Assembly: GCF_001186155.3 (NCBI RefSeq)
Contig: NZ_CP016541.2
Coordinates: forward strand, 6,676 to 70,675
From: Planococcus versutus
GTDB lineage: Bacteria; Bacillota; Bacilli; Bacillales_A; Planococcaceae
DNA: 64,000 nt
Direction of reading: 5' to 3'
Shown: positions 731 through 19,910 of the stretch, piece by piece
How positions within the stretch are numbered: position 1 is the stretch's first letter
How the letters are laid out: each line of letters begins with the position of its first letter
The notes under the pieces: generated by a model
Databases searched by the model: none
Seen by the model: the letters and a program-made list of their open reading frames with translations, nothing else
What the model was told of the DNA's origin: nothing
Position numbers and translations under genes: made by a program

Positions 731-1000
731 ATGGAGAAAAAAGAGAAAGGTGCTTCGTCTGTTTATCTGATAGTTGCTTCAATAGGTATGGTTTTACTAG
801 GATTTGGTCTTTTAGAATATTTATTACTTGTGGGAAATCCGGGTACACCCAATTTCTTACTAACTTTTGCGAGTTTTTTTATTTTAGTTCATTACATCTA
901 TCACTTAGAAAAAAAGACAGGTGTTAGTAATAGAGTAATCTGGATCAAATCTCTCCTTGTGGCCCTATCTCTATTTATTCTTATTTCTATCTTTCATTAG
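731..1000 (+). CDS. Small membrane protein of cassette 1
   Basis: This is an 89-residue protein of unknown function. I chose ATG 731 over the upstream GTG 704 because GAGAGG sits 8-10 bases before it. Three hydrophobic stretches (about residues 12-32, 40-56 and 71-88) predict a small integral membrane protein with a charged N-terminus (MEKKEKG). It is the first unit of an array of single genes separated by 32-bp palindromic sites, and its stop lies 5 bases before the first site. I recognise no domain. Confidence 0.6.
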   Translation: MEKKEKGASSVYLIVASIGMVLLGFGLLEYLLLVGNPGTPNFLLTFASFFILVHYIYHLEKKTGVSNRVIWIKSLLVALSLFILISIFH

Positions 1001-1005
1001 AATCC

Positions 1006-1037
1006 GAATGTAACTTGTGCGCAGTTAAGTTACATTC
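1006..1037 (+). repeat. Cassette-junction site 1 (12+8+12)
   Basis: GAATGTAACTTG, spacer TGCGCAGT, then TAAGTTACATTC. The arms are inverted repeats with one mismatch at the inner base, and the spacer gives the site a direction. Site 1 of nine. Confidence 0.8.
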
Positions 1038-1068
1038 AAAAAATTTTTTACTAAAAAAACGAATACAA

Positions 1069-1422
1069 ATGGAGGTGTCTACAATAGCTAATAAAAAACT
1101 GACAGAATTCACTTTAAAAGATGTTATTGAAAGAAAGATAACTTTTACCGAAACTAATACGATTTACGATAAAAAAGACTTTGAAGATTACAATGCAGGA
1201 AATTTGGCAGCCCTTGATGAAATGTTGGGAGACATAAAAGAATCGAATGAGGAGGAGTTTGTTAAAAAGTATCTCGAAATAATGAAGGTCATATCTAAAC
1301 AGTTTGAAAAGGAAGAAGTTACTGATACTAGAGAAGTAGAAAAATTATCAGGTTATAACAATGCCATTGTAGATATCATGAAGTGTATTAACCCTTATTA
1401 TGAATATGATGTAGAAGATTAA
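1069..1422 (+). CDS. Hypothetical acidic protein of cassette 2
   Basis: This is a charged soluble protein of about 117 residues with no recognised domain and no signal or membrane segment. The start is uncertain. ATG 1069 has no good ribosome binding site. A strong GGAGGTG lies inside the frame at 1072-1078 and sits a normal distance from an ATA codon at 1084, which would give a protein beginning (M)ANKKLTEF. Use of ATA as start is possible but unusual. It fills the unit between cassette sites 1 and 2. Confidence 0.55.
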   Translation: MEVSTIANKKLTEFTLKDVIERKITFTETNTIYDKKDFEDYNAGNLAALDEMLGDIKESNEEEFVKKYLEIMKVISKQFEKEEVTDTREVEKLSGYNNAIVDIMKCINPYYEYDVED

Positions 1423-1492
1423 TTTCTAAATTTATACAAACGGAAAAATTTTTAAGTTGGCTGACCTCGGGTCCGCTAAAATTTGAATCACT

Positions 1493-1524
1493 GAATGTAA
1501 CTTGATGTGAATTAAGTTACATTC
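1493..1524 (+). repeat. Cassette-junction site 2
   Basis: GAATGTAACTTG, spacer ATGTGAAT, TAAGTTACATTC. It has the same arms and polarity as site 1. Confidence 0.8.
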
Positions 1525-1569
1525 AAAATAGGAGTTCAAGCAAAGATATTAGAAAAGGAGATATCGATT

Positions 1570-1731
1570 ATGAAGTTGGCATGGGCAATATATTTAGTTG
1601 GATTAGTGCTCATAATAATATATTTCAATACGGGCTCCACGGTAGCTTTTGTAATAGGGTTTGGACTGCAGCTTATAGGGTTTATTATTCAAACGATTAA
1701 CAAAAAGAAAGCTAATGAAAAATCAATATGA
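1570..1731 (+). CDS. Two-helix membrane miniprotein of cassette 3
   Basis: This 53-residue protein begins MKLAWAIYLVGL and ends KKKANEKSI. AAAAGGAG lies about 10 bases before ATG 1570. Two hydrophobic helices (about residues 4-19 and 24-41) are followed by a lysine-rich tail, so it is predicted to sit in the membrane with the tail in the cytoplasm. It is the only gene between cassette sites 2 and 3. The function is unknown. Confidence 0.6.
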   Translation: MKLAWAIYLVGLVLIIIYFNTGSTVAFVIGFGLQLIGFIIQTINKKKANEKSI

Positions 1732-1761
1732 GTTAATAAATGATTGGCGAGTAGAGGTTTT

Positions 1762-1793
1762 GAATGTAACTTATGTGCAGTTAAGTTACATTC
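1762..1793 (+). repeat. Cassette-junction site 3
   Basis: GAATGTAACTTA, spacer TGTGCAGT, TAAGTTACATTC. The 12-bp arms are a perfect inverted repeat. Confidence 0.82.
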
Positions 1794-1847
1794 AAATTGT
1801 TGTTTTAAAGGTTTTTTAACTAAAGTTCAGAAATGGAGGGATAAATA

Positions 1848-2228
1848 GTGAGATTAAGTGGGCAAGGTGTTGAAGAGAAATTAATGGCGACGAACTACAT
1901 TGATACAGAATTAAAGGAATTATATTATGATCACAGCAAGCATTTAGTGACCATAAAATATATGGGCTCAACGGATGATGATGTGGAAGATAGAGAGTAT
2001 ACCGTTCTGTTTAAAGAATGTTTTTCCGCCACCTTCAATACCTGGTTGGAAGGGGCGGAAGGAGATATCCCACAATCGCCCAATGACGTGGCTTTCTATT
2101 TTCATGACATTTCGATTAGAGGAATTGTAGTGGAAGGTGTTTCTCTTTATCAAGTTAAAATGGTTATTCCCATGATGGATTGTCAGATTACCTGTAAATC
2201 GATTGAGATAGTTAGAAGTGGAATTTGA
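1848..2228 (+). CDS. Hypothetical protein of cassette 4
   Basis: This is a 126-residue soluble protein of unknown function. GTG 1848 is favoured because GGAGGG precedes it at good spacing; ATG 1884 (MATNYIDTE) is a possible later start. The sequence is mixed and acidic with aromatic residues and looks like a compact alpha/beta domain, but I recognise no motif. The stop codon TGA overlaps the first bases of cassette site 4, so gene and site are immediate neighbours. Confidence 0.6.
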   Translation: MRLSGQGVEEKLMATNYIDTELKELYYDHSKHLVTIKYMGSTDDDVEDREYTVLFKECFSATFNTWLEGAEGDIPQSPNDVAFYFHDISIRGIVVEGVSLYQVKMVIPMMDCQITCKSIEIVRSGI

Positions 2229-2258
2229 ATGTAACTTATTGTGAATTAAGTTACATTC
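2227..2258 (+). repeat. Cassette-junction site 4
   Basis: GAATGTAACTTA, spacer TTGTGAAT, TAAGTTACATTC. Site 8 has exactly this spacer in the opposite orientation. Confidence 0.82.
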
Positions 2259-2302
2259 ACATCTGCTAATAACCGTAGTTTATGAATTAAGGGAGGTGCG
2301 AT

Positions 2303-2650
2303 ATGACGTCTTATTATTATTTGGCTTCAAACCAAAACATGACAGATGGAACAGGCTCTCTTGAGTTTTTAGAGGTGGATGCAATGAATGTTCCAGGCTT
2401 CGATTATCCAATCCAAAGAGAAATTTTTAATGGTATAGAAAAGGCCTGGCAGCTGAGAGAATTACACCAATATATTTCAAATCACATGGCACGTCATGCA
2501 AATTGCGTAATTCAGATAGCCCACTTACTAAATTCGAATCTGGTCGAGCTTAAAGTGCAGGAAAAAAACCTGTTACTGTTTTCCGAGTTGACGGATCCTA
2601 GACAACTTTTGCTAAATGAAAGCCAATTATTGACCATCAAAAAAGAATAG
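2303..2650 (+). CDS. Hypothetical protein of cassette 5
   Basis: This 115-residue soluble protein has no domain I recognise. GGGAGGTGCGAT stands before ATG 2303, a strong start. The N-terminus (MTSYYYLASNQ) is aromatic-rich and the C-terminal half carries hydrophobic heptad-like spacing. Its stop lies 10 bases before cassette site 5. Length and position match the other units: one gene, short leader, no visible promoter of its own. Confidence 0.6.
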   Translation: MTSYYYLASNQNMTDGTGSLEFLEVDAMNVPGFDYPIQREIFNGIEKAWQLRELHQYISNHMARHANCVIQIAHLLNSNLVELKVQEKNLLLFSELTDPRQLLLNESQLLTIKKE

Positions 2651-2659
2651 AGAGGTTTT

Positions 2660-2691
2660 GAATGTAACTTATTAGCAATTAAGTTACATTC
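2660..2691 (+). repeat. Cassette-junction site 5
   Basis: GAATGTAACTTA, spacer TTAGCAAT, TAAGTTACATTC. Perfect 12-bp arms, extendable to 14. Confidence 0.82.
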
Positions 2692-2713
2692 AAAAGCCCT
2701 CCATCACTGGAGG
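2691..2713 (-). terminator. Terminator of the 2725-2826 gene
   Basis: On the minus strand CCTCCA-GTGA-TGGAGG forms a 6-bp GC-rich stem with a 4-base loop, followed by GCTTTTG. It lies just past the stop codon of the minus-strand miniprotein. Confidence 0.6.
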
Positions 2714-2724
2714 ACTTACAGTTT

Positions 2725-2826
2725 TTACATTGCTTTTTTCTTAAATATTTTTCTTAATAAAAAAACTAATCCAATTAAAACGACAATAGTAATAACCATT
2801 CCTGGTACGCCAATATTTGTTAACAT
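2725..2826 (-). CDS. Single-helix membrane miniprotein of cassette 6
   Basis: This 33-residue protein has one hydrophobic helix (about residues 9-24) and a basic tail RKIFKKKAM. AAAGGAGGGACTAT precedes the ATG, a near-ideal ribosome binding site, and a terminator hairpin follows. It is the only gene of the left array on the minus strand. The layout resembles small membrane peptides such as type I toxins or regulatory miniproteins, but nothing in the sequence proves that. Function unknown. Confidence 0.55.
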   Translation of the reverse strand: MLTNIGVPGMVITIVVLIGLVFLLRKIFKKKAM

Positions 2827-2983
2827 ATAGTCCCTCCTTTTTGTATCTACTATTTTTTATTTCTAGTTAAATTTTAAGGAAACCACTTTATTAAAAATTA
2901 ATCAGATAACTATACCCGTTTATTTCTAATAAGGTTTCGTTTTTTTAAAATTAACAAATTTCAAGAGATTTTCTACTGGTTCT

Positions 2984-3015
2984 GAATGTAACTTAAGTCT
3001 AATTAAGTTACATTC
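2984..3015 (+). repeat. Cassette-junction site 6
   Basis: GAATGTAACTTA, spacer AGTCTAAT, TAAGTTACATTC. It is the last site of the left array and the outer end of the 255-bp inverted repeat. Confidence 0.8.
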
Positions 3016-3133
3016 ACTTCCTTGATTCTGCTAGCTTTACGGGAAAATCATTTCGAACTAATTTCACTAGAAAAAATGATACATTCAGAATGCTATTCTA
3101 TAAGGTTTTAAAACTTGAATCTCAAAAGATCTA

Positions 3134-3161
3134 GGTTTACATATCGCAGCTTGTCGGAAGT
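3134..3161 (-). other. dif-like XerC/XerD site A
   Basis: On the minus strand it reads ACTTCCGACAA, GCTGCG, ATATGTAAACC. This is the 11+6+11 layout of Bacillus dif, sharing ACTTCC and TATGTAAAC with it. The 6-bp centre is identical to that of site E. Confidence 0.7.
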
Positions 3162-3178
3162 CTATAAGAGCAAACTGG

Positions 3179-3210
3179 AGAAGATGCTGGTCCTAAGCAT
3201 CTTCTTTTTT
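3179..3210 (+). terminator. Hairpin terminator beside dif-like site A
   Basis: GAAGATGCT pairs with AGCATCTTC, followed by TTTTTT. A hairpin of this kind follows every dif-like site on the same side. Confidence 0.65.
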
Positions 3211-3238
3211 CGTTCATGTATGTGTACTTTTACGAATG
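3211..3238. other. Solo res-I-like 28-mer
   Basis: Half-sites CGTTCATGTA and TTTACGAATG flank an 8-bp centre. It has the length and half-site pattern of res subsite I, but no subsites II or III are nearby. Confidence 0.5.
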
Positions 3239-3267
3239 GTTTTCTAATTTTTGTTCCTACATACTTA

Positions 3268-3320
3268 CTTTTATTGACGGTAAGATTTCCATGCGTGAAA
3301 GACTTGGGTTTCAGTCATAA
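3268..3320 (+). pseudogene. IstB (IS21 family) C-terminal remnant
   Basis: One frame reads IDGKISMRERLGFQS followed by a stop. This matches the last residues of an IstB-type helper ATPase and the better-preserved copy near 57790-57837 (IDGKISMRERLGIHS). The downstream AATAAAAA is shared by both copies. Only about 50 bp survive, so this marks an old IS21 insertion or deletion end. Confidence 0.5.
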
Positions 3321-3440
3321 GAATAAAAAACTGTCTTCAACCGGCATGCATTTGTTTTGGTTTTTAAATAAATGTCATTGCTTTGCAAGAGAGAAAATTC
3401 ATAAGCGCCTTTCTTGAGTTTTAATTTAGAACGATTTCTA

Positions 3441-3704
3441 TTACTCCAATGCACCGATAAGTAACGGAGCAAAAATCAATAGACCAAATACAATCCAGAC
3501 ACTTGTTTGTGTGTCAATTCGCTTATCTAAAAACTCAAATCGTCCCTGTAACATTTTGTCAAGCGAACTATAAGATAAGAAAATCAGTAAAAATATGACA
3601 AATGCGGCCCATCTATTAGATTCAAGCATGGGATCGATAACTAAAAGATATATGCCCATGGAAATTAAAAAGAACAAAAAACTCAATAATGTCGATACTC
3701 TCAA
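3441..3704 (-). CDS. Small multi-pass membrane protein
   Basis: This 87-residue protein has hydrophobic segments at about residues 4-24, 32-46 and 68-85, so three membrane helices are likely. The start is TTG 3704, placed 8 bases after AAGGATGTG; the ATG just upstream is out of frame. It is alone between dif-like sites A and B and so forms one dif-bounded module. I recognise no family. Confidence 0.5.
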   Translation of the reverse strand: MRVSTLLSFLFFLISMGIYLLVIDPMLESNRWAAFVIFLLIFLSYSSLDKMLQGRFEFLDKRIDTQTSVWIVFGLLIFAPLLIGALE

Positions 3705-3997
3705 TTCATTTCACATCCTTTTAAAATCTCTTTCTAAACAAAGTTAAATAGAAAACAGAGTATTTTATCTATATGTATATATTTTATCAAATAATTCAGA
3801 CACCTTCGGAAATATTTTTAATGTTTCGAAAAAAATACGACATATAAAAAGTATTGGGAGTGTGTTTTTATTGGTTTTTTGCTTACATATCAGCTAACAT
3901 TTTTAGGTCATTTTATAATTTTGTACTTTAAAACAGAACCTGGTAGTATGTTTCGAACCTTTCTTAATGTACTTTTAAATAATAATCGATTGAAATT

Positions 3998-4025
3998 AGT
4001 TTACATATCATAAGTTATCGGCAGC
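3998..4025 (-). other. dif-like XerC/XerD site B
   Basis: On the minus strand it reads GCTGCCGATAA, CTTATG, ATATGTAAACT. The XerD-type arm is intact and the XerC-type arm differs at three outer bases. The centre CTTATG differs from that of site D (CTCATG) at one base. Confidence 0.65.
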
Positions 4026-4402: not shown

Positions 4403-5698
4403 ATGAGGAAAATGGATTACCAAAATGTAAAAGGGACACAAGATTATTTGCCTAATCAAGAAATGATCAAAAGAAACATTCGTAGAACCTTAGAAGATAC
4501 ATTTATCGCTTACGGGTGCAATCCTTTAGAAACGCCTATCCTAAACTACACAGACTTAATGGCTTCTAAGTATGCAGGGGGGGCAGAGATTTTACAGGAG
4601 ATGTATCGATTAACTGATCGGGGTGAACGTGATTTAGCGTTACGTTATGATTTGACGATTCCTTTCGCAAAAGTTGTAGCAATGAACCCGACGATTCCGA
4701 TGCCGTTTAAACGTTATGAGATTGGTAAAGTATTTCGGGATGGCCCCGTCAAAGCCGGACGTTATCGTGAATTCACGCAATGTGATGTGGATATTGTTGG
4801 GGTGGAATCACAGGCTGCAGAAGCAGAATTAATGATGATGGCATTAGATGCTTTTAAGAATCTGGACGTAAAGGTAGAGATTCAATTTAATAACCGGAAA
4901 CTTTTATACGGGGTATTGCAACAATTTCAAGTCCCTGAAGATGTAATGAATCGCGTTATTTTGGTTCTAGACAAGGTAGAAAAAGTCTCGGTGGAGTCAA
5001 TGATGAATGAATTATCTCAGCTCGAGCTGACGCCATCTAGTTTGGCCCAAATCAAAGCTTTTATTGAATCCAAAGGACAAATGACAATAGATAACTTCAA
5101 ACGTTGGGATGAGGAAAATATTTTTTTACAAGAAGGATTAAAGGAGTTAGAGGAACTTACCTCTTACTTAGAGGGATTGGGAATTCAAGAAATGTGTATT
5201 TTCAATCCGTTTTTGGCGAGAGGATTGGAGATTTACACGGGAACCATTTATGAAATCTTTTTAGCAGATGGAACAATCCGATCGAGCATCGGAAGTGGTG
5301 GCCGGTATGACAATGCGATTGGCGGACTTTTAAATTCTGAAAAAACGTTTTCAACAGTAGGTATTTCATTCGGATTAGATGTTATTTTTTACGCATATGA
5401 ACTGTCGGGCCGTGTAAATAAAGGTTCGGCAATCGACATCTATATCATTCCAATCGGAACAATTAAGGAAGCACTCAAGCTAGCATCAGACTTACGATCT
5501 CAGGGCAGCCGAGTAGAAGTGGAATTATCAAACAAAAAGGTAAATAAAGCGATGGATCGAGCAAATCGTGAAGGGATTGCCAATGTCATTGTATTAGGAG
5601 AAGATGAAATCAACAGCGGTTTCTATCAAATGAAAAACATGTACACAGGTGTAATTCAAAAAAACCTTTTATCAGTTATGGACAGCCAAGTAAAATAG
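4403..5698 (+). CDS. hisS: Histidyl-tRNA synthetase paralogue
   Basis: A class II aminoacyl-tRNA synthetase of about 431 residues that should charge tRNA-His with histidine in the cytoplasm. Visible motifs in order are YQNVKGTQDYLP near the N-terminus, the motif 2 region RYEIGKVFRDGPVKAGRYREF, the HisRS signature RGLEIYTGTIYE, and motif 3 GISFGLDV. A full anticodon-binding domain follows, so it is a synthetase rather than the shorter regulator HisZ. I chose ATG 4403, after AGAGGG; ATG 4412 is an alternative. Control by the His leader peptide upstream is likely. It sits between dif-like sites B and C. As a plasmid copy it may back up or replace a host enzyme blocked by an inhibitor; that role is conjecture. 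Confidence 0.9.
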   Translation: MRKMDYQNVKGTQDYLPNQEMIKRNIRRTLEDTFIAYGCNPLETPILNYTDLMASKYAGGAEILQEMYRLTDRGERDLALRYDLTIPFAKVVAMNPTIPMPFKRYEIGKVFRDGPVKAGRYREFTQCDVDIVGVESQAAEAELMMMALDAFKNLDVKVEIQFNNRKLLYGVLQQFQVPEDVMNRVILVLDKVEKVSVESMMNELSQLELTPSSLAQIKAFIESKGQMTIDNFKRWDEENIFLQEGLKELEELTSYLEGLGIQEMCIFNPFLARGLEIYTGTIYEIFLADGTIRSSIGSGGRYDNAIGGLLNSEKTFSTVGISFGLDVIFYAYELSGRVNKGSAIDIYIIPIGTIKEALKLASDLRSQGSRVEVELSNKKVNKAMDRANREGIANVIVLGEDEINSGFYQMKNMYTGVIQKNLLSVMDSQVK

Positions 5699-5837: not shown

Positions 5838-5845
5838 TCCAGAGT

Positions 5846-6085: not shown

Positions 6086-7882
6086 TTATTTGCAAAGTTC
6101 CTTATACAACAAGTTAATAGGAAAGTTTTCTAAGTCATCTTTTTCTTCTTGGCTTAATAAAGAGAAGTAATACTTCGAATCAGATTTATTTTGGAGAAGA
6201 ACATTACAACAAAACTTAAGTAAATTTTCATTTACAAAAATCTTTTCTTCTTTGATTTTTACTAACTCCTGTTGCTCTTTGTCGTTCAAAGCATTATTCA
6301 TTCTAAACTTCGCTTGCATTAAATTAACTGTCATTATCGCTTTATTTAAAATCGTATTGTTTTTCTCTAAAACTAATTGGGAAATATACAAAACAAGATT
6401 TAAGTATTCCATTTCTTTCTCTTGATCGAATTTATTAATACAATCAATACAAAAACGATTAGTTTCTCGGAAAGTAATTTCATTATAAGTATGGAATTTG
6501 GGGTTAAAGGATTTCTTTACCAACTCACTACTTGTATTTGCTGCCGATTTAAAGTCTTCCACTTTAACTAATAAAAACGGACTTACACTGTAGTATTGAT
6601 CGACTTCTTCACTAGTTAACATTATTCCAACATCATTAAAATCTTCGACATTCAAGCTTTTATACATTTCTTCTTTATGAGAGTAATAAGTCAATAAAAA
6701 ATCTTCTTCTATATATAATTTTAATCCACCTGTTACCTCCTTAGGAGGTAAATTAGTGCCGTCATATTTTTTTTCGATCAAAAAACGATTTGCTTGATAT
6801 GCAAGATTACTCAAAGTAGTGCTTTTTATAAAGTAGTCCAAAGAAATGCCTATTTCTTTAAAAACATTCTCAATGAATGGAATCCTTTTTAATTGGAATT
6901 CAAAATCGATAAAGTCTTCTTTCTTCCAGGTTAAATCATTAAATTGAATTGCCCCGCCAAATAAGGATATGTTCTTTTTTTGGTAAACTTCATTAAGAAA
7001 TATCAGTGTTTTTTTGTATGAATTCACACTATGTAAGTCCTCAACTTTGAAATTCACTTTGCCATCCCAATTGTTGTGCGAAATAGTAAGCGTATTTTCT
7101 AAAATTATAGTCATTTTATCTTTCATTTCGAAGAGAGAATAATCATATGGAACTTCTTTATCATTAATTAAAATATTGGTTGTTCCATTGTGATTTATAG
7201 TGTCTAACCTTACTATACTTATAGGATGTTCAACATCATGTTTGATTCCGTAGGCATACATTTCTTGCCCAATTATTTCAGAAGTTTTTCCAGAGGAATT
7301 TAACGATAAACTAGTGACCTTAATTTTCTCGAAATTTTGGTCATGAAAAGTATGTTTTCCGACGTAAGATGGCGGTTGACGTTTCTTTTCCCTTAAAAAG
7401 TGCATACATATTTTCTCCAATTCCGTATATTTTAAAATCGGAATCAAGTTAATGCTGACAGTTGGCGTAGTCTTACGACTAGTGTTCATTTTACTTTCAC
7501 ATTTCTTTAATAATGGTGTGATATCAAGAGGTAAAAGAACTTTAGCAAAAACAGTAGTTGAATTTCCTATTATTTCGGTTAAGAAGAATACAATCCCGCC
7601 TGCATTGTAATAGTTTTCTAAATCATACATATTTACTTGAAAGTTAGCGTGTATTGGAGAGAGTTTAGTAACTGATTTTCCTTTTACTTGTACTGGGACA
7701 AATCCTAGTAAAGTGTCTTTTTTAAAGTTAGAACTCTTATAAACATTTATTCCGCCATCAAAAGAAACCCCGCGGTCTCCTACTGGAATTTCGGATTGCA
7801 ATCTAGAATTAGTATTCAAAATTAAACTCTGTACAGCATGTACGGCCATTCCTTCAATTATTGTAGTAGAAGTTTTTCCCAT
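6086..7882 (-). CDS. Large protein with DUF4365-like N-terminus
   Basis: A protein of about 598 residues. Residues 30-75 show D-x3-FDGG followed by VPVQVKGKS, the pattern of DUF4365-type folds related to PD-(D/E)XK nucleases (D...D...QxK). The rest has no motif I know apart from a CIDC pair near residue 470. I chose ATG 7882 (MGKTSTT), preceded by GGGGGAA; an upstream ATG at 7939 lacks any ribosome binding site. Proteins with such N-termini often belong to phage-defence or mobile islands. A nuclease-linked defence role is an inference from fold and context, not shown by the sequence. Confidence 0.6.
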   Translation of the reverse strand: MGKTSTTIIEGMAVHAVQSLILNTNSRLQSEIPVGDRGVSFDGGINVYKSSNFKKDTLLGFVPVQVKGKSVTKLSPIHANFQVNMYDLENYYNAGGIVFFLTEIIGNSTTVFAKVLLPLDITPLLKKCESKMNTSRKTTPTVSINLIPILKYTELEKICMHFLREKKRQPPSYVGKHTFHDQNFEKIKVTSLSLNSSGKTSEIIGQEMYAYGIKHDVEHPISIVRLDTINHNGTTNILINDKEVPYDYSLFEMKDKMTIILENTLTISHNNWDGKVNFKVEDLHSVNSYKKTLIFLNEVYQKKNISLFGGAIQFNDLTWKKEDFIDFEFQLKRIPFIENVFKEIGISLDYFIKSTTLSNLAYQANRFLIEKKYDGTNLPPKEVTGGLKLYIEEDFLLTYYSHKEEMYKSLNVEDFNDVGIMLTSEEVDQYYSVSPFLLVKVEDFKSAANTSSELVKKSFNPKFHTYNEITFRETNRFCIDCINKFDQEKEMEYLNLVLYISQLVLEKNNTILNKAIMTVNLMQAKFRMNNALNDKEQQELVKIKEEKIFVNENLLKFCCNVLLQNKSDSKYYFSLLSQEEKDDLENFPINLLYKELCK

Positions 7883-7993
7883 TTCTAGTTCCCCCATAAA
7901 ATCCTTTGTAAGATTTATTATTATTTTATAGTTTATCATCTTTGAAAGGAGGAAATTGGTAAAGACTAAATTTGTAATTTTATAAGATTACTA

Positions 7994-9118
7994 TTATTGA
8001 AAACCTGTTTGCTTTACTCGATTTTCTTCCATGCGTTCTAACACCTGCTCATTATCCTTATTGGATAGGTTGGTATAAAGCGAAGTCGTTTCGATATTGC
8101 TATGACCTAATTGATCACGCAAAAGGACGATATTGCCGCCATTTCGAATAAAATCTGCTGCAAAACTATGTCGCAGTTTATGTGGGCTCATGCCTTCTCC
8201 TTGAGCGAATGCAGCAGTATACTTGGTCACCAGATTCTCAATCGCACGCCGTGAAAGAGGTCGGGCAACGCCTCCATATAGCGTCACTAATAGGAAAGGG
8301 ACTTCTTTAGATCCGATATACCGGCCTTCCCGGATATCTAGATAGTCCCTTAGGTGTTGGATCGCTTGATCCATGACCCTAACGGTGTCCTCTTTAGCAC
8401 CTTTTCGTTTGACGTCGATCAATTGCTTCTTAAGGTTAATTTTCTTGATGAGAATGCGTGCCATTTCACCCAGTCGGATACCGCTGCCAAGGAAAAGAGA
8501 GAGGATGGCCAGATCCCGTTCCTTGTCCCGGTTGAACCGTTGTCGGGCAAGTCCACTTACCAACGTAGCTTCATATGCATGTTCGACAAACTGCAGGAAG
8601 TCGTTGATTTCATGTTCATTTAGGATGACAGAACTGATTTTCTGCGCCCGTCGGTTAGCTGTCTCTTTTTTGGTATGAAGCACAATTTTGCTCATGACGT
8701 TTCGGTAGAAGTAGGATTCTCCGTCTTCAGTCTCGGTTTCTTTCGTCAAGTAATTGAAAAGTGATTTTAACGCATTAACTGAAAGAGTAACGACTGCAGA
8801 ACCACGCCTTTTTACGCTGTTGTTCTCGTGAGTGATTGATTCTTCTTTTAAGAACTCAATGTACAGCTCGATATCCTGTTTCTTCATTTCGGCCAGTACT
8901 GAATAGGGAATCGTAGAAATTTCTGTAGTTTCCGTCAAATTCTCCCGAAGCAGCCACTGAAAAAAGTGCTGATAGCGGTAAAGGTACTGAAGCAAGGTAT
9001 CAGCTGAAAGGCCAGCACGTTTTTTGGAGCGAATATATTCAACGACATAGAAGGGCATGCTGTTTAATTGATTTTCAATCCGTTGGAGGACTTGCAATTC
9101 TTCAGGTGTCATTGCCAT
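7994..9118 (-). CDS. Tyrosine recombinase, XerS-like
   Basis: A 374-residue phage-integrase family enzyme that cuts and joins DNA through a tyrosine. The N-terminal core-binding domain (SADTLLQYLYRYQHFFQWLL) and the catalytic residues are present: R in GSGIRLGEMARI, the HKLRHSF box, H in LGHSNIETTSLY with the nucleophilic tyrosine at its end. The length and N-terminus (MPFYVVEYIRSKK) resemble the single-component recombinase XerS of streptococci. The start has AAAGGAGGT at good spacing. It could act on the dif-like sites, the 32-bp cassette sites or the 36-bp palindrome at 9150 just upstream; which one is not decidable here. Confidence 0.88.
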   Translation of the reverse strand: MAMTPEELQVLQRIENQLNSMPFYVVEYIRSKKRAGLSADTLLQYLYRYQHFFQWLLRENLTETTEISTIPYSVLAEMKKQDIELYIEFLKEESITHENNSVKRRGSAVVTLSVNALKSLFNYLTKETETEDGESYFYRNVMSKIVLHTKKETANRRAQKISSVILNEHEINDFLQFVEHAYEATLVSGLARQRFNRDKERDLAILSLFLGSGIRLGEMARILIKKINLKKQLIDVKRKGAKEDTVRVMDQAIQHLRDYLDIREGRYIGSKEVPFLLVTLYGGVARPLSRRAIENLVTKYTAAFAQGEGMSPHKLRHSFAADFIRNGGNIVLLRDQLGHSNIETTSLYTNLSNKDNEQVLERMEENRVKQTGFQ

Positions 9119-9233: not shown

Positions 9234-9977
9234 TTATAAAACGGCTTTAAAATAGGTGGTTAAACTTTCTTCTACACACTGTGCGATTAACTCAACGAAA
9301 GGCTGTGTATTTCCTAGAATGCTCGCTGTTTCCAACGTTTCGTAGTACGTTAAGCGCTGTGCATCTTCAGCTTTGACGATAGCAGGAGGGAAGCCATGAC
9401 CCATGAGGATCAAGTTCATCAGCAATCTCGCCGTCCGGCCATTCCCATCTGCGAATGGATGAATATAAACGAACTTAAAATGAAACAATGCAGCCAGCTT
9501 TACTGGGTGCATTCGGTCCTTTTCTTGATCGTACCAGGCGAAAAGCTCTTGCATTTCATTTGCCACCTGTAGGAAGTGCGGCGATTCATGTTGGCTACCA
9601 GAGATCCGTACGTTGATAGAGCGATATCTACCCGCATTTTCATCGTCGATGTTCTTTAAAATCAAGTGATGAATCGTCTTTAGTGTTCGCTCATCCAAAG
9701 GCTCGGTTTGAGTGACCTGATCCTCGATAAAACGAATGGCTTCAGCGTGATTGATGACTTCGAAATGCTCCTGCAGCCGCTTGCCGCCAATGGTTAAGCC
9801 ATCTTCCATGACGACTTTTGTCTCAATCAACGACAAGGTATTGCCTTCGATGGCATTCGAATTGTACGTCCATTCCACACGATACACATCGCGCAGGTTC
9901 TTCACAGCTGCCGCTGGAAGGGGTCTATGTTGATCTAATTGGTTTTTTAATTCGTCGATACGATTAAATTGATTCAC
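9234..9977 (-). CDS. fic: Fic domain protein
   Basis: A 247-residue Fic enzyme, likely to transfer AMP (or another nucleotide part) to hydroxyl groups on target proteins. The catalytic motif HPFADGNGRTAR is complete, near residue 175. An N-terminal inhibitory-helix motif, SNAIEGN near residue 40, marks the self-inhibited class II, in which a glutamate blocks the active site. GTG 9977 is the start, after AGGTG. The gene stands alone between two inverted 36-bp palindromes, which suggests that it is carried as a unit. No separate antitoxin is next to it, which fits the self-inhibited class. Confidence 0.9.
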   Translation of the reverse strand: MNQFNRIDELKNQLDQHRPLPAAAVKNLRDVYRVEWTYNSNAIEGNTLSLIETKVVMEDGLTIGGKRLQEHFEVINHAEAIRFIEDQVTQTEPLDERTLKTIHHLILKNIDDENAGRYRSINVRISGSQHESPHFLQVANEMQELFAWYDQEKDRMHPVKLAALFHFKFVYIHPFADGNGRTARLLMNLILMGHGFPPAIVKAEDAQRLTYYETLETASILGNTQPFVELIAQCVEESLTTYFKAVL

Positions 9978-13721: not shown

Positions 13722-14714
13722 TTACTGATTGTACAAGGGCGATGCAGCTGGTTTCCCAAAATAGTAACCTTGGAATAATTGATAGCCCCGTTGTTTCAGC
13801 CAGTTAAAGTCATCGCGTGTTTCAATCCCCTCTGCCAATGGGATAGAACCAATTTCGAGTGCTTTCTTTAAAAATTTATCAGCGACTTTTTGTTTTTCTT
13901 CATCGATCGCGACATCCTGAACAAACTTCATATCCAGTTTCATGTATTTTGGTTTAAGATCTGCCAGCATCTCGATGGTGCTATATCCTTCGCCAACGTC
14001 ATCTAATGCGTAATCGAATCCTTTTTCTCGATAGTAGGTTAGAATTTTTTTCAGGTGTTCAAGATCCTCTACTTTTTCTGTCTCCACTACTTCAAATACC
14101 AGTGATTTCGGATCTATCCCTAACTGTTGAGACAAAGAAATGGTTGATTGTAGGCAAAACTCGGGTGAATAGATGGAAGTGGGAATAAAGTTGATGAATC
14201 CCTTTCCCCCTTTTAGTGCAGCTGCATACTTCACAGCAGTCATTCTACAAACTCGATCCAATGCATACAACCGTCCACGTATTTTGGCTGCAGGAAAAAT
14301 TTCATTCGGGTAAATCATCGAACCATCTTCATTTTGAAAACGCGCTAGCATTTCATGAGCAAAGATATTCTCATCTACATCCACAATCGGCTGATAGTGG
14401 CAGAAGAGCCGTTCGTTTTTAATGACATCGTCTATCCATTCAGTTGCAAAAACTTGAGGCATCTCTTCTAACGGCTTCCAAGCTTCTTGATTGATCCGAA
14501 ACACCACGTGGTCAATATCTAGTAAATCTCGACAAAAGTCCAAAAATTCGCGAGCGCCTTTTTCATCCATCTGTAGTTTGTCTTTTTTCTGGATAACTTC
14601 AATTTCTCTTCTTTCCAAATGATCTATAACAATATGCGAAGCTGAAAGATTTTTAGCTCCTTCCAACTTGATTTCAAATTGGATGGCTTCTACCGAACAG
14701 TTGTTGCATTTCAT
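13722..14714 (-). CDS. EAL-domain c-di-GMP phosphodiesterase
   Basis: A soluble protein of 330 residues whose C-terminal two thirds form an EAL domain that should hydrolyse cyclic di-GMP. Catalytic residues are visible in order: HEMLAR (EAL position), NFIPTS, FEVVETE, DDVGEG, KLDMKF, AEGIET and QGYYFGKP, so it is probably active. The N-terminal 100 residues start with CNNCS, a possible metal pair, and form no domain I know. The second ATG (14714) is favoured because GGAG lies 9 bases before it; ATG 14720 is too close. It is divergent from a GGDEF gene, so synthesis and breakdown enzymes sit side by side. Confidence 0.9.
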   Translation of the reverse strand: MKCNNCSVEAIQFEIKLEGAKNLSASHIVIDHLERREIEVIQKKDKLQMDEKGAREFLDFCRDLLDIDHVVFRINQEAWKPLEEMPQVFATEWIDDVIKNERLFCHYQPIVDVDENIFAHEMLARFQNEDGSMIYPNEIFPAAKIRGRLYALDRVCRMTAVKYAAALKGGKGFINFIPTSIYSPEFCLQSTISLSQQLGIDPKSLVFEVVETEKVEDLEHLKKILTYYREKGFDYALDDVGEGYSTIEMLADLKPKYMKLDMKFVQDVAIDEEKQKVADKFLKKALEIGSIPLAEGIETRDDFNWLKQRGYQLFQGYYFGKPAASPLYNQ

Positions 14715-14959
14715 AATCATTGTCTCCTTTTATTTATGGTATTTATAGTATACTTCATAAGCAATAAAGACTTTTTTTTTTTTTGAAAATTCAAAGACTG
14801 GATAAAAACTTATCTTCCATTTTCATAGCTTATCAATCCGCATTTTTATAGCTAAATCTCCGCATGTGCTTAACCGTATTTTCAAAACTCTACGTTCATT
14901 TCAAAAGTCTGCGATTATATAAGTACGTTAATTTTGTAAGAATTTTAGGAGGAAGAGTC

Positions 14960-16582
14960 ATGCGCTTTTCGTTAAGTCTTCGGACGCAACTAGCCATTAT
15001 TTTTGGCGGGACTACTTTTTTATTGATTTGTATCTTTGGTGTTTTTTACGGAGATCGCTCGATCAAACAGGTCGAGGTTGGAATTGGAAATTCACTTAGC
15101 GAAGCTGCCTATTTGATGGAAAATAATTTAAATCAGTATATGTGGTCCAGATACGGCGAAACCATTATGCTTAGCAGTTTGTCAGACATTAGACAGCTGG
15201 AGGACGAGGAAAAAATTGGATCTATGCTCAACCAGACACAGTCAACTTTTCCCGCCTTTTCATGGATTGGTCTTACTGATCAAGATGGCACAGTCATTGC
15301 GTCTACAGACTCAATTCTTAAAGGAGTTGATATTTCCGAACGACCCGTTTATTCAGAAGCCTTGGAAAAAAATTTTATTGGCGATGTACATGAAGCTGTG
15401 CTGCTTGCGGATCTTTTGCCTAATCCCACTGGTGAAGACATGAAGTTTGTCGATATCAGTACACCGATTTTTGATGATGCGAACCAGTTTATAGGTGTTT
15501 TAGCGACGCACTTAAGTTGGGAGTGGGTAAAAGAAATTGAAACTTCTATGATTGATTCGTTAAAATACCGAGATGGCATTGAATTTTTGATTGTTAGTAA
15601 AATAGATGATGTCGTCATATTAGGTCCCGATAACTTATTGGGAAAACCTTTAGATTTGGAGAGCATAGAGTTGGCACGTACCAATAAAAATGGATCCATT
15701 ACCGAAACATGGCCAAATGGAAAAGAGTACGTAACCGGTTATATGTTAGAAAATGGTTACATGGAGTATCCAGGTTTAGGATGGACAATTTTAGTCAGAC
15801 AACCGGTAGAAGTTGCCCATGCTCCCATAAAAGAACTCGTACTGTTCTTTTTAGTATCGGGATTGATCTTTGTTGTCCTTTTTGCTGTTCTCGGCTGGTT
15901 TCTTGCAGGAAGAATTGCCTCCCCATTAAAAGATATAGCTTCTACAGCTGATCGATTGAGAGTCGGAGAGCTTGTTCAGATTCCCTATTATAAAGGAACA
16001 TCAGAACTGGAAACCTTATCTCTTTCTTTAAGAAAACTGGTTTCAGATCTTACCTCTACCGAATCGGCTTTAGTAGAAATGAAAGAAGTAGCCACACGAG
16101 ATGAACTTACAGGTTTAGCAAATCGCTATGCTCTAGATGCTTATTTAGATGAATTTATTCAAAAAAATAAAATGGCGATTGTGTTGTATATAGACCTCGA
16201 TGGCTTTAAATTAATTAATGATACATTAGGACATAATGCCGGGGACGCACTTCTTGTTCAAGTAGCTAAGAGGCTGAAAAAGAGTGTAAGAGAAAACGAA
16301 ATGGTTGCCAGAATAGGCGGAGATGAATTCGTTGTTGTTTTACCAGCTGGAAAAGAAAGTCTGGCTAAAAGAGGAGAACTAGTTGGAGAAAGAATGATTT
16401 CATCCATCAATAAGCCATACGCGCTAAATGGCGAAAAGGTTTCAGTCAGTTGCAGCATAGGCGCTGCGTGTTGGGAAGCCTCTAGTCTGACTACTATAGG
16501 AGAGACAATAAAAACAGCGGACGAAGCTTTGTACACAGCTAAGCGAGAAGGAAAAAATCGCATTCACATCTATGGATACTAG
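14960..16582 (+). CDS. Membrane sensor diguanylate cyclase (dCache-HAMP-GGDEF)
   Basis: A 540-residue membrane sensor that should make cyclic di-GMP. ATG 14960 follows AGGAGGAAG. Layout: helix at residues 12-30, an extracellular double-Cache-type sensor (about 35-290), a second helix (about 295-320), a HAMP-like linker, and a GGDEF domain from about residue 375 with DELTGLANR, DLDGFKLIND-LGHNAGD and an intact GGDEF. The residues before GGDEF read RENEMVAR, so the product-inhibition motif RxxD is not conserved. The gene is divergent from the EAL gene. On a plasmid the pair could shift host biofilm or motility behaviour; that is inference. Confidence 0.92.
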   Translation: MRFSLSLRTQLAIIFGGTTFLLICIFGVFYGDRSIKQVEVGIGNSLSEAAYLMENNLNQYMWSRYGETIMLSSLSDIRQLEDEEKIGSMLNQTQSTFPAFSWIGLTDQDGTVIASTDSILKGVDISERPVYSEALEKNFIGDVHEAVLLADLLPNPTGEDMKFVDISTPIFDDANQFIGVLATHLSWEWVKEIETSMIDSLKYRDGIEFLIVSKIDDVVILGPDNLLGKPLDLESIELARTNKNGSITETWPNGKEYVTGYMLENGYMEYPGLGWTILVRQPVEVAHAPIKELVLFFLVSGLIFVVLFAVLGWFLAGRIASPLKDIASTADRLRVGELVQIPYYKGTSELETLSLSLRKLVSDLTSTESALVEMKEVATRDELTGLANRYALDAYLDEFIQKNKMAIVLYIDLDGFKLINDTLGHNAGDALLVQVAKRLKKSVRENEMVARIGGDEFVVVLPAGKESLAKRGELVGERMISSINKPYALNGEKVSVSCSIGAACWEASSLTTIGETIKTADEALYTAKREGKNRIHIYGY

Positions 16583-16920: not shown

Positions 16921-17124
16921 TTAAACTTCGTTTTTTTTCTTTCTAAATAATTGGAAAACTGAAAGAGTGACCATCACTAGCATAATTGGATAAATAAATA
17001 ATAAATCAATTCTAATAATTCCACCCACTTGTGTCTTTGACCATTCTCTGATATATAATTCCCACGGGATCCATGCGATTGCCAATAGAATCGTAACTAG
17101 CTGAATTTTAGTGATTTTCCTCAT
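16921..17124 (-). CDS. Two-helix membrane protein
   Basis: A 67-residue protein with two hydrophobic helices (about residues 6-22 and 40-58) and a lysine-rich C-terminus (RKKKNEV). GAGTGATAGAAG precedes the ATG. The N-terminal helix carries W-I-P-W-E, giving a marked aromatic belt. It stands alone between the diguanylate cyclase gene and dif-like site D. I recognise no family; small size and position suggest cargo of the same kind as the cassette genes. Confidence 0.5.
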   Translation of the reverse strand: MRKITKIQLVTILLAIAWIPWELYIREWSKTQVGGIIRIDLLFIYPIMLVMVTLSVFQLFRKKKNEV

Positions 17125-17692
17125 CTTCTATCACTCCTTCACTATTGTTTTCACTTTGTTTCCCACTATCAAAATAAAGCGAAGTTTCGCTGAAAAGTAG
17201 TCAACCAACTATTCCTCCAAATTTTATAATTTCACTTTTCTTTTTTATAAAGCGTTTTAATCCATCTGTTTACTTTATAAGTCTATAGTTTCCATGTTTG
17301 CAGCCCAATTCATCATAGTCATAACCTGATTCAAAGCCACAGTACAAAAAAACAATCCATGCTAAAATGTGTTTCACATAACAGGCAAGCCACTTCTCTC
17401 TTTTAGAGCACCCGGTACACTTTCTTAAGGTTCATTTCTCTATATCAAATATATTCATCCGAACTAAGATAACTAGCTACTTATAAAAAGTAGGACGCTT
17501 ACAAATGTATACAGGTTCCAGACACAAAAGAAGAGATGAAGCGTTTTTCTAGCCTCTTCTCTTCCGATAACTCATGATATGTAAACCAAATATGGACTTC
17601 AATTTAGTAACCCGTTCAGTTAAGGAATGTACATAGTAAATTAAAAGTGAGCCACTACAGGAGTTGAGAACATTTTTTCTCTGTTAATGAAG
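17125..17692. other. Intergenic stretch with dif-like site D
   Basis: I see no gene. It holds dif-like site D (17560-17587) and, beside it, an imperfect hairpin (AAGAG to CTCTT, 17529-17559) in the same relation as at the other dif-like sites. Confidence 0.45.
17560..17587 (+). other. dif-like XerC/XerD site D
   Basis: TCTTCCGATAA, CTCATG, ATATGTAAACC in plus orientation, opposite to sites A-C. The centre differs from that of site B at one base. Confidence 0.7.
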
Positions 17693-18193
17693 TCAGCCGT
17701 TATTTGTAGAGAGTACTTTGAAAGTATCCCAGTCGACTATTTCTTGGTATTCCTCATCATTTACTGTGTAATTAATTTTTGCAGCTCTATTTTCATCCTC
17801 TACTACCTCGCCAAGCCGAACTTCTGCTACAATTCTGCTCTCTCCTTGAAGTTCAAATCCATTAATATCTACTATTTCCCCAATATTACGTTCTCCTGAA
17901 TATAAACCCGCTTGTTTTAAAGGGTCGGCACCGTGAAATACATATTCGATACCATCTTCTCCAAACGTCACTGGTTCTTCGTTTTCTTTAACTAATTCAA
18001 CAGAAGTAATTACCGCTGGTTCTTCACCTGTCCATTCAAATGGAAGAACAATGTAGTAGCTTTCGTTGGATTCGAGTGAATCTCCGTACATATTTCCAAA
18101 CATAAACTCTCCATCAACCGATTCTTCTGAATCACTGCAAGCAGCTATTAGTAAAAACAAAAACATAATAGGTACTAGCTTAAGTGTTTTCAT
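17693..18193 (-). CDS. Putative lipoprotein, unknown
   Basis: A 166-residue protein with a lipoprotein signal: MKTLKLVPIMFLFLLIAAC puts the lipobox cysteine at residue 19. The mature part is acidic and beta-rich with no domain I recognise; it would be anchored on the outer face of the membrane. AAAGGGGGCCAC precedes the ATG. It fills the module between dif-like sites D and E, alone. Small lipoproteins of this kind are common cargo, and no specific role can be read from the sequence. Confidence 0.6.
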   Translation of the reverse strand: MKTLKLVPIMFLFLLIAACSDSEESVDGEFMFGNMYGDSLESNESYYIVLPFEWTGEEPAVITSVELVKENEEPVTFGEDGIEYVFHGADPLKQAGLYSGERNIGEIVDINGFELQGESRIVAEVRLGEVVEDENRAAKINYTVNDEEYQEIVDWDTFKVLSTNNG

Positions 18194-18312
18194 AAGTGGC
18201 CCCCTTTATTTAATATCATCTTACTTCTAATGATATCTATTTTTCAGGTTAAATGGAAGTAAATTGGCATTTTTAAACAATCTTCAATAATTATTCATCA
18301 CAACTTTTAAAG

Positions 18313-18340
18313 CGTTCGTAAAAGTACACATACATGAACG
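18313..18340. other. Solo res-I-like 28-mer, right copy
   Basis: CGTTCGTAAA, 8 bases, TACATGAACG. It is the mirror of 3211-3238 and forms the inner end of the right inverted repeat. Confidence 0.5.
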
Positions 18341-18373
18341 AAAAAAGAAGATGCTTAGAACCAGCATCTTCTT
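18341..18373 (-). terminator. Hairpin terminator beside dif-like site E
   Basis: On the minus strand GAAGATGCT pairs with AGCATCTTC, followed by TTTTTT. It mirrors the hairpin at 3179-3210. Confidence 0.6.
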
Positions 18374-18389
18374 CAGTTTGCTTTTATAG

Positions 18390-18417
18390 ACTTCCGATAA
18401 GCTGCGATATGTAAACC
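18390..18417 (+). other. dif-like XerC/XerD site E
   Basis: ACTTCCGATAA, GCTGCG, ATATGTAAACC. The centre is identical to that of site A and the orientation is opposite, so recombination between A and E would invert the 15-kb core. Confidence 0.72.
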
Positions 18418-18535
18418 TAGATCTTTTAAGATTCAAGTTTTAAAACCTTACAGAACAGTATTCTGAATGTATCATTTTTTCTAATAAAATTAGTTCGGAA
18501 TGATTTTCTGGTGAAGCCAGTAGAATCAAGTTTTT

Positions 18536-18567
18536 GAATGTAATTTAATTAGCATTATGTTACATTC
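18536..18567 (-). repeat. Cassette-junction site 7
   Basis: Read on the minus strand: GAATGTAACATA, spacer ATGCTAAT, TAAATTACATTC. Slightly degenerate arms; it opens the right array. Confidence 0.7.
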
Positions 18568-18610
18568 ACTTAGAAGAAAAAATTGATTAATTTCGCTCGT
18601 TTGCACTCTC

Positions 18611-19108
18611 TTATTTCGAGGGAAACACTCTCTTTCTCCGTTCCCTGTAAATACTCCATACAGCCCCTATGATATAGCAAATTAATAAGACCAAAATAAA
18701 AGTTAAGGCATTGAAAAAAATAGCATTAGAAAAGGTACTCCATAATGGAACTTGAGAAACGGTTTCAAAGTTAACCTGTTTCTGTACAATGGTTTTTCGT
18801 AGATCCTGTGCTTTGTTTTCCGTATAAATAATTATAATTGCTGCTGCTATTACGCTGAATATCAAGCTAGTAACTAGAGTTTTGTTTGTCTTAATTTTTT
18901 CTGCGAGTCGCATAGAGAGTTCTGTCGTACCGTATAAAAAATAAAAGAAAAATGGCATGAGAAAAACCGGAATAAACAGGGCTGGATTACCATTTCCACC
19001 CCCCGTACCGTCTTCTACAACAGTTTCTGTGAAAAAGTTCATTCCATAAAATCCTATTAATACAACTACCAAAGAAATAACGTACAAAAAAAGCAGCAAT
19101 TTTCTCAT
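18611..19108 (-). CDS. Four-helix membrane protein of right-array cassette
   Basis: A 165-residue integral membrane protein with hydrophobic segments at about 4-26, 45-62, 80-96 and 128-150 and basic ends (RERRKRVFPSK). AAAGGAGGAATATTT precedes the ATG. It is the only gene between cassette sites 7 and 8. I recognise no family. Like the left-array genes it points in the same direction as its neighbouring sites. Confidence 0.6.
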   Translation of the reverse strand: MRKLLLFLYVISLVVVLIGFYGMNFFTETVVEDGTGGGNGNPALFIPVFLMPFFFYFLYGTTELSMRLAEKIKTNKTLVTSLIFSVIAAAIIIIYTENKAQDLRKTIVQKQVNFETVSQVPLWSTFSNAIFFNALTFILVLLICYIIGAVWSIYRERRKRVFPSK

Positions 19109-19173
19109 AAATATTCCTCCTTTTTTGAATGTTTCTCAAATTGTTTTTGCCATTTGCTTAATTACTTGGTTTT

Positions 19174-19205
19174 GAATGTAACTTAATTCACAATAAGTTA
19201 CATTC
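19174..19205 (-). repeat. Cassette-junction site 8
   Basis: Read on the minus strand: GAATGTAACTTA, spacer TTGTGAAT, TAAGTTACATTC. It is identical to site 4. Confidence 0.82.
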
Positions 19206-19239
19206 AAATTGTATTTGCTGATCTTATTATCATTAGTTA

Positions 19240-19509
19240 CTACTCATTATTTTTTATTGGAGAATCTCCTTTTTCCCAAGTTGTTGGTCCTTCATCAACT
19301 GATATGAATTTATTCCAATACTGACCTGATTCTTTATCAAAAATGATGAGATTATTTTCATTCGCAGGAATTAATTCATATCTATGTTCAGCATTAGTGT
19401 TAATTGCTTCGGACTCTTTTTCTCCTAATGCCGTTACTAAAGAAAACCCTAAAATTGCAAATCCTATTATAATTGCAAGACCAATAATTAATGATGAACT
19501 GTTTTTCAT
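19240..19509 (-). CDS. Membrane-anchored small protein of right-array cassette
   Basis: An 89-residue protein with one N-terminal helix (about residues 7-28) and a soluble part of about 60 residues predicted to face outward. AAGGAGGAAGAAA precedes the ATG, an ideal start. It is the sole gene between cassette sites 8 and 9. No domain is recognised. Confidence 0.6.
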   Translation of the reverse strand: MKNSSSLIIGLAIIIGFAILGFSLVTALGEKESEAINTNAEHRYELIPANENNLIIFDKESGQYWNKFISVDEGPTTWEKGDSPIKNNE

Positions 19510-19539
19510 TTTCTTCCTCCTTATTTTTTATAGCAATTT

Positions 19540-19571
19540 GAATGTAACTTAACTGCACTTAAGTTACATTC
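19540..19571 (-). repeat. Cassette-junction site 9
   Basis: Read on the minus strand: GAATGTAACTTA, spacer AGTGCAGT, TAAGTTACATTC. A decayed tenth site may lie near 19950-19980 (TTAAGTTATATACACATTC). Confidence 0.8.
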
Positions 19572-19725
19572 AGTTTCAAACATTCTCTACATTTAGATTA
19601 ACATCAATCCCCATAATATGGAGATGGAATAATCAGCATTGCTTTCTCGAATAAAAGTGTTCGAAAACACACACCTATACTAAAGATGAGAAAAAATGTG
19701 ATAGTGTTCGCATCTTCCCTCCTTA

Positions 19726-19910
19726 TTAACTTTCACTTTTCTCTCTTACTTCCATAATAATTAGGGCAAGTGTACTTATAAGGGCTATTACATACATAAT
19801 AGTTTTACTTGTTTCTCCCCAAGTGTCTATGGCAGCAATAGAAATTACTACGATTAAAAAATATACCTTAAATACATTTTCATATTCTAAGTCCCCTTAA
19901 TGACAGAAAT
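19726..19910 (-). pseudogene. Decayed two-helix cassette gene
   Basis: An open minus-strand frame ending at TAA 19726 reads ...FKVYFLIVVISIAAIDTWGE and MYVIALISTLALIIMEVREKSES. This is a protein-like two-helix sequence, but no start codon is in frame. An ATG after GGGGACTTAGAAT (19881-19883) lies one frame off, so a single-base change probably broke the start. It lies between cassette site 9 and a decayed site, which fits an eroding last cassette. Confidence 0.4.

Follow-up and report, generated by a model that had tools for sequence, protein, structure and literature searches.

What kind of element are the two runs of short genes, parted by near-palindromic 32-base-pair (bp) sites, that lie on a plasmid-sized contig of Planococcus versutus? 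The stretch analysed, referred to as the window, comprises 64,000 nucleotides (NCBI RefSeq assembly GCF_001186155.3, contig NZ_CP016541.2, positions 6,676 to 70,675) and is the greater part of C2, a 70,675-bp contig in a genome of 3.33 Mb and three contigs. From our comparison of this window with related loci, we regard it as quite probable that both runs belong to a genus-wide system of ordered cassette exchange, in which a recombinase of 187 amino acids (aa) would swap cassettes between arrays slot by slot, by recombinase-mediated cassette exchange. The first-pass annotation of the window had proposed a recombination-built cassette array with a polar spacer, which is supported by cassette swaps that break at the sites and by a tyrosine recombinase gene tied to them; it had not anticipated the ordering of spacer types, the probable enzyme, a 13+6+13 geometry or the spread through the genus.

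Site structure and the order of the core types

The nine sites named by the annotation were all recovered; a search of the window allowing at most 3 mismatches gave 18 strand-matches, i.e., nine near-palindromic places, and 100 shuffled sequences gave none. Eight of the nine are free of mismatches (R being permitted at one arm base) and the site at 18536 has two. Site orientation is as noted earlier, with the sites of the left array facing right and those of the right array facing left, and by core type (defined below) the arrays read A B A B C D (left) and, on the other strand, A B D (right). The sites found by pattern search are:

1006..1037, + strand, cassette site type A, spacer TGCGCAGT
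1493..1524, + strand, cassette site type B, ATGTGAAT
1762..1793, + strand, cassette site type A, TGTGCAGT
2227..2258, + strand, cassette site type B, TTGTGAAT
2660..2691, + strand, cassette site type C, TTAGCAAT
2984..3015, + strand, cassette site type D, AGTCTAAT, last of the left array
19540..19571, - strand, cassette site type A, AGTGCAGT, first of the right array
19174..19205, - strand, cassette site type B, TTGTGAAT
18536..18567, - strand, cassette site type D, ATGCTAAT, last of the right array

The consensus of the 32-bp site is GAATGTAACTTAw-N6-wTAAGTTACATTC. It had been divided as 12+8+12; the conserved dyad, with arms complementary at 0.82 to 0.99 for twelve positions and at 0.52 for position thirteen, seems better read as 13+6+13, and the core is taken as 6 bp because two relatives with different arm letters, from Peribacillus and Solibacillus, keep the full 13+6+13 dyad. 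The spacer had also been said always to end in A-A/G-T, and we found T as its closing base in 294 of 348 sites only. About 58 sites (at most 2 mismatches) occur in the genome, nine of them in the window, and are clustered on the chromosome, C2 and C3; a reversed control pattern found none. Among 261 genomes searched, 45 of the 46 from the genus had the core pattern with zero mismatch, as did 1 of the 215 from the rest of the family. A scan of a collection of species genomes returned 117 stretches, labelled Planococcus or Planomicrobium except for one Gracilibacillus and one Exiguobacterium contig. The Gracilibacillus contig (L046) bears an array and the Exiguobacterium contig (L130) a single site, and their labels may reflect transfer or contamination.

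The spacer does not simply vary, as had been described, but falls into four ordered types. Sites were oriented by their own letters and their cores classed by the last four core letters as A (xGTGCAGx), B (xTGTGAAx), C (xTAGCAAx) or D (xnnnTAAx), an untyped class being allowed. These counts, and those of neighbour agreement and of the enzyme, take in loci up to L186; L001-L015 are left out throughout, L026 from the first pair count, the duplicates L024, L025, L026, L174 and L181 from the order, agreement and slot counts, and L026, L174 and L181 from the enzyme count, as are sites whose 152-bp context had already been counted and sites with more than 3 changes in 18 outer arm bases. The first set (173 chains, 470 sites) had same-strand neighbours mostly in order (AB 80, BC 50, CD 46, BD 29, AD 13, AC 4), few reversed (DC 9, BA 4, DA 3, CB 1, DB 1) and some equal (DD 21, BB 1, AA 0, CC 0), and 35 further pairs included an untyped site. 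The larger set of 183 chains (134 with two or more sites) held 496 sites, of which 44 untyped were omitted from the order test; its pairs were 467 in order, 37 reversed and 44 equal, whereas 2000 within-chain shuffles gave a mean of 252 and a maximum of 301 in-order pairs and between-chain shuffles a mean of 141 and a minimum of 107 equal pairs. Adjacent equal A, B or C sites occurred once against 45.8 expected. As judged by these comparisons, the four core types stand in a fixed A-B-C-D order along the arrays.

An integron-like process, in which single circular cassettes are excised and inserted one by one and spacers drift freely, would suit the single genes, uniform junctions and polar sites, as well as the change of slot by cassettes over time and the resemblance of enzyme-less clusters to integron clusters lacking an integrase. 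However, insertion of one-site circles should often yield equal neighbours or mixed order, whereas equal A, B or C neighbours are nearly missing and the order is nearly fixed, and the integron integrase model TIGR02249 gives the recombinase described below 29.2 bits against a cut-off of 265; we hold this explanation to be quite improbable.

Cassettes and their exchange between arrays

A cassette is pictured as about one short gene bounded by directly repeated 32-bp sites. The annotation had almost always one gene between successive sites, which stands for six of the seven window segments, each with an open reading frame (ORF) of at least 53 aa; segment 2692-2983 offers only a shorter frame, seen by eye. 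Relatives from other arrays exist for six of the seven cassettes in the window (percentages give identity):

1038..1492, + strand, A-B cassette, ORF frame 1015-1422; 71% over 74% to a B-C cassette of Planococcus sp. ISL-110 (L069)
1525..1761, + strand, B-A cassette, 53-aa ORF 1570-1731; 95% over 99% to a B-C cassette of P. halocryophilus (L103), both flanks unlike
1794..2226, + strand, A-B cassette, 126-aa ORF 1848-2228 with its stop codon partly inside the next site; 83% and 79% to cassettes on the chromosome of this genome (L020, L022)
2259..2659, + strand, B-C cassette, 115-aa ORF 2303-2650; 88% over 98% to a cassette on the Gracilibacillus-labelled contig (L046)
2692..2983, no strand assigned, C-D cassette, short minus-strand membrane-peptide frame (by eye only); 90% over 99% to a D-D cassette on the chromosome of this genome (L018)
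19206..19539, - strand, A-B cassette, 89-aa ORF 19240-19509; 97% to P. salinarum (L128) and 96% to an uncultured Planococcus contig (L132)
18568..19173, - strand, B-D cassette, 165-aa membrane-like ORF 18611-19108; no match in the remaining internal cassettes of the set

For cassette 19206..19539, the 120 bp outside each site are unlike those of its relatives, and the wider lead is partly similar to that of L128.

The sites do coincide with borders of gene gain and loss, which had been set beforehand as the test of the annotation, and the whole-unit swaps it predicted on comparing neighbours were found. We compared 62 cassette pairs (at least 94% identity, 28 families) by gapped alignment of 120 bp either side of the site edges. 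Inside the sites, identity was at least 0.78 on both sides in 62 of 62 pairs; outside, it fell below 0.65 in 51 of 59 readable pairs on the left and 51 of 59 on the right, with both outer flanks below 0.65 in 45 pairs from 19 families (random flanks: mean 0.50, maximum 0.63). The outside was also alike in 6 pairs on the left and 7 on the right. An ungapped comparison, which could read insertions as unlike DNA, agrees (51 left, 49 right, 43 both). Near-identical cassettes thus recur across arrays with unrelated flanks, homology ending at the site. For example, 1605-2164 of L101 (P. maitriensis) and 12681-13240 of L200 (G026), both on small Planococcus contigs, share 560 bp at 99.8% from the first A base to the last B base between unlike flanks, and the remaining matches between the two (72-92%) do not adjoin this block. 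Within L200, two units share an exact B-cassette-D block (381 bp, 100% identical), their A-B cassettes differ, and the entire 1,159-bp alignment, which includes the recombinase side, is 90.7% identical. From these alignments we read the sites as the cassette borders.

Site types also follow the cassettes. In 36 cassette families (at least 90% identity) with a changed neighbour, site type agreed at 0.67 on the left and 0.65 on the right, against null values of 0.26 and 0.29 from 1000 shuffles (null maxima 0.47 and 0.49), which is indicative of a bias of like with like. Given the type, the first spacer base follows the cassette on its left (0.67 vs 0.54, reached by 27 of 1000 nulls) and has no link with the cassette on its right (0.49 vs 0.50); the last spacer base held nothing beyond chance (0.84 vs 0.78, 148 of 1000; 0.71 vs 0.72). 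This points, with modest support, to strand exchange inside the core; the annotation had expected breaks inside the 8-bp spacer.

Throughout the set, 313 internal segments fall into 156 families, with a median longest ORF of 123 aa; the longest ORF runs along the site direction in 214, is opposed to it in 91, and in 8 there is none of 40 aa. Pfam and PADLOC were searched with 100 of the 149 cassette-ORF families, drawn from those of 75 aa or more. Among the 100 representative proteins 43 Pfam families were matched; the 25 listed comprise 6 with two members and 19 with a single one, and include GNAT, SUKH, barstar, NUDIX, Gp49, a transposase and several DUFs. PADLOC matched three families with one member each. 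The arrays can be regarded as a catalogue of accessory genes because many cassette genes match no known family.

A plasmid-borne recombinase tied to the sites

The annotation had expected one Cre-like recombinase to bind both arms. A tyrosine recombinase gene is indeed tied to the sites, but Cre is a loose model for it, as the protein has 187 aa and consists of the catalytic domain alone. It is found on small Planococcus plasmids (enzyme contigs whose size was read measure 5.3 to 31 kb), matches the Phage_integrase domain (PF00589, 8.8e-21) and two solved chains, of XerC-like and XerA proteins, and shows by eye the residues R, K, H-x-x-R, H and Y. Among 39 non-redundant gene copies, a count that leaves out two later single-site copies (L206 and L207), 34 have an upstream site in the record, in 34 of 34 cases in the direction of the gene and in 32 within 800 bp; the remaining 5 copies lie at most 645 bp from the start of the record. 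For those 32, the nearest upstream site is of type D 23 times, of type C 3 times, of type B 2 times and untyped 4 times. At the opposite end, a homologue of a protein of ~185 aa with weak MerR matches stands ahead of site A in 18 of 26 enzyme-locus leads and 12 of 81 others, and this protein ends 25 bp from A in 16 of 30. A putative promoter lies, by eye only, between the core site and a half-site. The source genome carries the recombinase on C3, a copy in G027 has an internal stop, and G035, the genus genome without sites, yields only a distant Xer-like match. Genomes with the enzyme (18) have a median of 11 sites and those without (28) a median of 5, a difference that is partly circular because enzyme plasmids themselves bear sites.

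Both window arrays end in a remnant of the start of the recombinase leader, with a degenerate half-site kept and the gene missing, and are called enzyme-less on that account. The two ends, and the gene that leads the left array, are:

3016..3230, + strand, left array end, recombinase-leader remnant with a half-site remnant at ~3071-3090 and a terminator-like hairpin after ~3180, both by eye
18300..18535, - strand, right array end, the same leader remnant, 92% identical to the tail of the left array across 18% of 1200 bp
731..1000, + strand, gene ahead of the first A site of the left array, 89-aa ORF, no Pfam match

The leads of several other arrays are 85-89% similar to the left lead over 13-59% of its 1005 bp.

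Service of the arrays by an XerS-like recombinase of 374 aa encoded in the window (7994-9118, - strand) was weighed as well. The gene sits between both arrays, scores 395 bits on the NCBIfam XerS model against a cut-off of 267, and has intact, diverged or decayed relatives in several genus genomes; however, 12 of 16 XerS stretches outside the window (4 to 20 kb, some matches being only 39-63% alike or fragments) have no site, whereas 34 of 39 copies of the 187-aa gene have one upstream, and a like-shaped site with different arms is retained at that position by several relatives of the gene. We rejected XerS as the enzyme on these grounds, its involvement being very improbable, and the 187-aa plasmid-borne protein is most likely the enzyme of the system. 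After the XerS-like gene lies a 617-aa protein (6086-7939, - strand) without a Pfam or NCBIfam match.

Relatives of the 187-aa recombinase occur on Rummeliibacillus pPP9 (77%, L187), Peribacillus p16118 (53%) and Solibacillus pSSIL1 (51%), and in G215 (L210). In the stretches read, each of the four has a single site ahead of the gene, with a second half-site closer to the gene in Rummeliibacillus, G215 and Peribacillus; the sites of Rummeliibacillus and G215 differ from the Planococcus pattern at the end base, and those of p16118 and pSSIL1 have other arm letters. On two genus contigs (L206, L207) the gene is preceded, at ~960 bp, by one lone site whose core is TATGTA. A 13+6+13 site was not clearly discernible ahead of the gene in Bacillus velezensis (L240), Caldicellulosiruptor (L188) or G204 (L231), and G100 (L230) has only an imperfect one. 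The plasmids pPP9, p16118 and pSSIL1 resemble the Planococcus loci in their homologous enzyme and one 32-bp upstream site but differ in that no cassette array was found in the sequence covered, which was the whole of pPP9 and part of p16118 and pSSIL1. From the single like-shaped site upstream of the gene in other genera, we infer descent of the arrays from a plasmid resolution system.

Two further plasmids look multimeric. The Lysinibacillus plasmid pFN9D (L173, NZ_CP106866.1) has six matches to the Planococcus pNM8 recombinase beside repeated resistance genes and resembles a Planococcus plasmid acquired in multimer form. P. antarcticus pPA05-1 (L181, 31,009 bp) resembles a 15.5-kb plasmid joined head to tail with a second copy of itself, the annotation differing slightly between the two halves.

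Proposed exchange and its relation to known systems

In the exchange we propose, the tyrosine recombinase would bind both inverted arms and exchange strands inside the 6-bp core, most efficiently where the core letters of both partners match. As the cores A-B-C-D of one array differ mutually, deletion of a cassette within its own array would be hindered, while a swap of the same slot with another array could proceed through a cointegrate at one shared core and resolution at the next. Exchange of like with like would leave the order unchanged, and repeated types would tend towards deletion. The window arrays, being without the gene, may be served in trans from plasmid C3 of the same genome. A contig that resembles such a cointegrate is C4 of G020, in which plasmid C3 of G020 is fused with another plasmid that is present twice, with joints at D. 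Up to D, the left flanks at these joints are common only in short repeats, and the first later difference lies 326 bases from the site start, which places the crossover within those 326 bp.

Several points weigh against the proposed exchange. The G020 joints could stem from homologous recombination over the 326 bp or from faulty assembly; among the four D cores compared there, that at 7393 differs by a single base. The recombinase (at least 88% identity) was found in 18 of 46 genus genomes, whereas 45 have sites, although plasmids may be missing from draft assemblies. Type D is loosely defined, and 44 of the 496 sites fall into no type. The 62 swap pairs are non-independent, several being from one seven-member family. 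The spacer-edge signals are modest and uncorrected for the 16 positions examined, the last base being silent. Different slots are occupied by 92 of 158 pairs at 75% identity or more with both neighbours changed, and by 31 of 69 pairs at 90% or more (85% of random pairs), so heterotypic moves happen. Nevertheless, same-slot pairs exceed the 15% of random pairs.

A reading of the sites as RNA or protein signals (processing hairpins or operators) whose loops depend on position, with the swaps due to ordinary homologous recombination, is extremely improbable. Hairpin-forming arms, an order following operon direction and the 214 of 313 ORFs in site direction speak for it; against it stand 91 of 313 cassettes read the opposite way, breaks at the site with unrelated DNA outside, the linkage to a recombinase gene and 0 Rfam matches in the window, for which last reason a known RNA family was rejected.

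The ordered exchange looks like a cassette-exchange system different from integrons. Both have arrays of single-gene cassettes, a mobile platform with a recombinase and clusters without enzyme; the Planococcus enzyme differs in lying far below the integrase cut-off and in being encoded after the last site in array direction. The attC site is long and folded (~57-141 bases) and recombines as a folded single strand; like the annotation, we reject attC identity here, on the uniform 32-bp length and the enzyme model (no attC model was run). Cre/loxP and the engineered heterospecific lox sites share with the Planococcus sites inverted equal arms and a short spacer that sets direction and compatibility. 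The Planococcus sites differ from lox in being natural, with a core of probably 6 bp, a catalytic-domain-only enzyme and four ordered core types.

The closest system in operation is that of the dif modules of Acinetobacter (pdif). These lie on small plasmids with one to a few genes per module and a 6-bp spacer, exchange was observed between sites with identical or near-identical spacers, and cointegrate formation and resolution are proposed to replace one module (PMC13141974). The modules have host-dif-like arms, use chromosomal XerC/XerD, switch orientation from one to the next and are acquired or lost two at a time (PMC13141974). The matching-spacer and cointegrate principle as proposed here, small plasmids and a 6-bp spacer are common to both, and the Planococcus arrays differ in equal non-dif arms, a plasmid-borne 187-aa enzyme linked to the sites, direct repeats and ordered spacers. 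Exchange between matching spacers is supported here by the agreement of site types above the null. The arrays are runs of direct repeats rather than alternating modules, and single inverted sites adjoin some of them. Host dif sites are built as 11+6+11; the sole dif-like site of the genome (C1:1568393, 2 mismatches to a Bacillus dif consensus) has other arms, and host dif was rejected as the identity of the sites on that ground. Among open-licence papers, judged by title and abstract opening, we found no description of these arrays.

We are evenly divided on whether the cores form a natural addressing code, in which four mutually incompatible cores would act as numbered slots for slot-by-slot exchange between plasmids and chromosomes, the array would stay ordered and resist self-deletion, and the whole would have arisen by multiplication of a plasmid resolution site. 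If the ordered exchange holds true, bacteria would have a further route, besides integrons and dif modules, for the storage and trade of single genes, in this case a Gram-positive system with its own small enzyme. The ordered cores make it testable how an array can be exchangeable yet stable and, conceivably, the 187-aa recombinase with several incompatible natural sites could be a tool for ordered DNA assembly.

As for the neighbourhood of the arrays on this plasmid-sized contig, a histidyl-tRNA-synthetase-like protein (431 aa, 4403-5698) lies directly past the left array, and a Fic protein (9234-9977), an EAL protein (13722-14720) and a GGDEF protein (14864-16582) lie between the two arrays.

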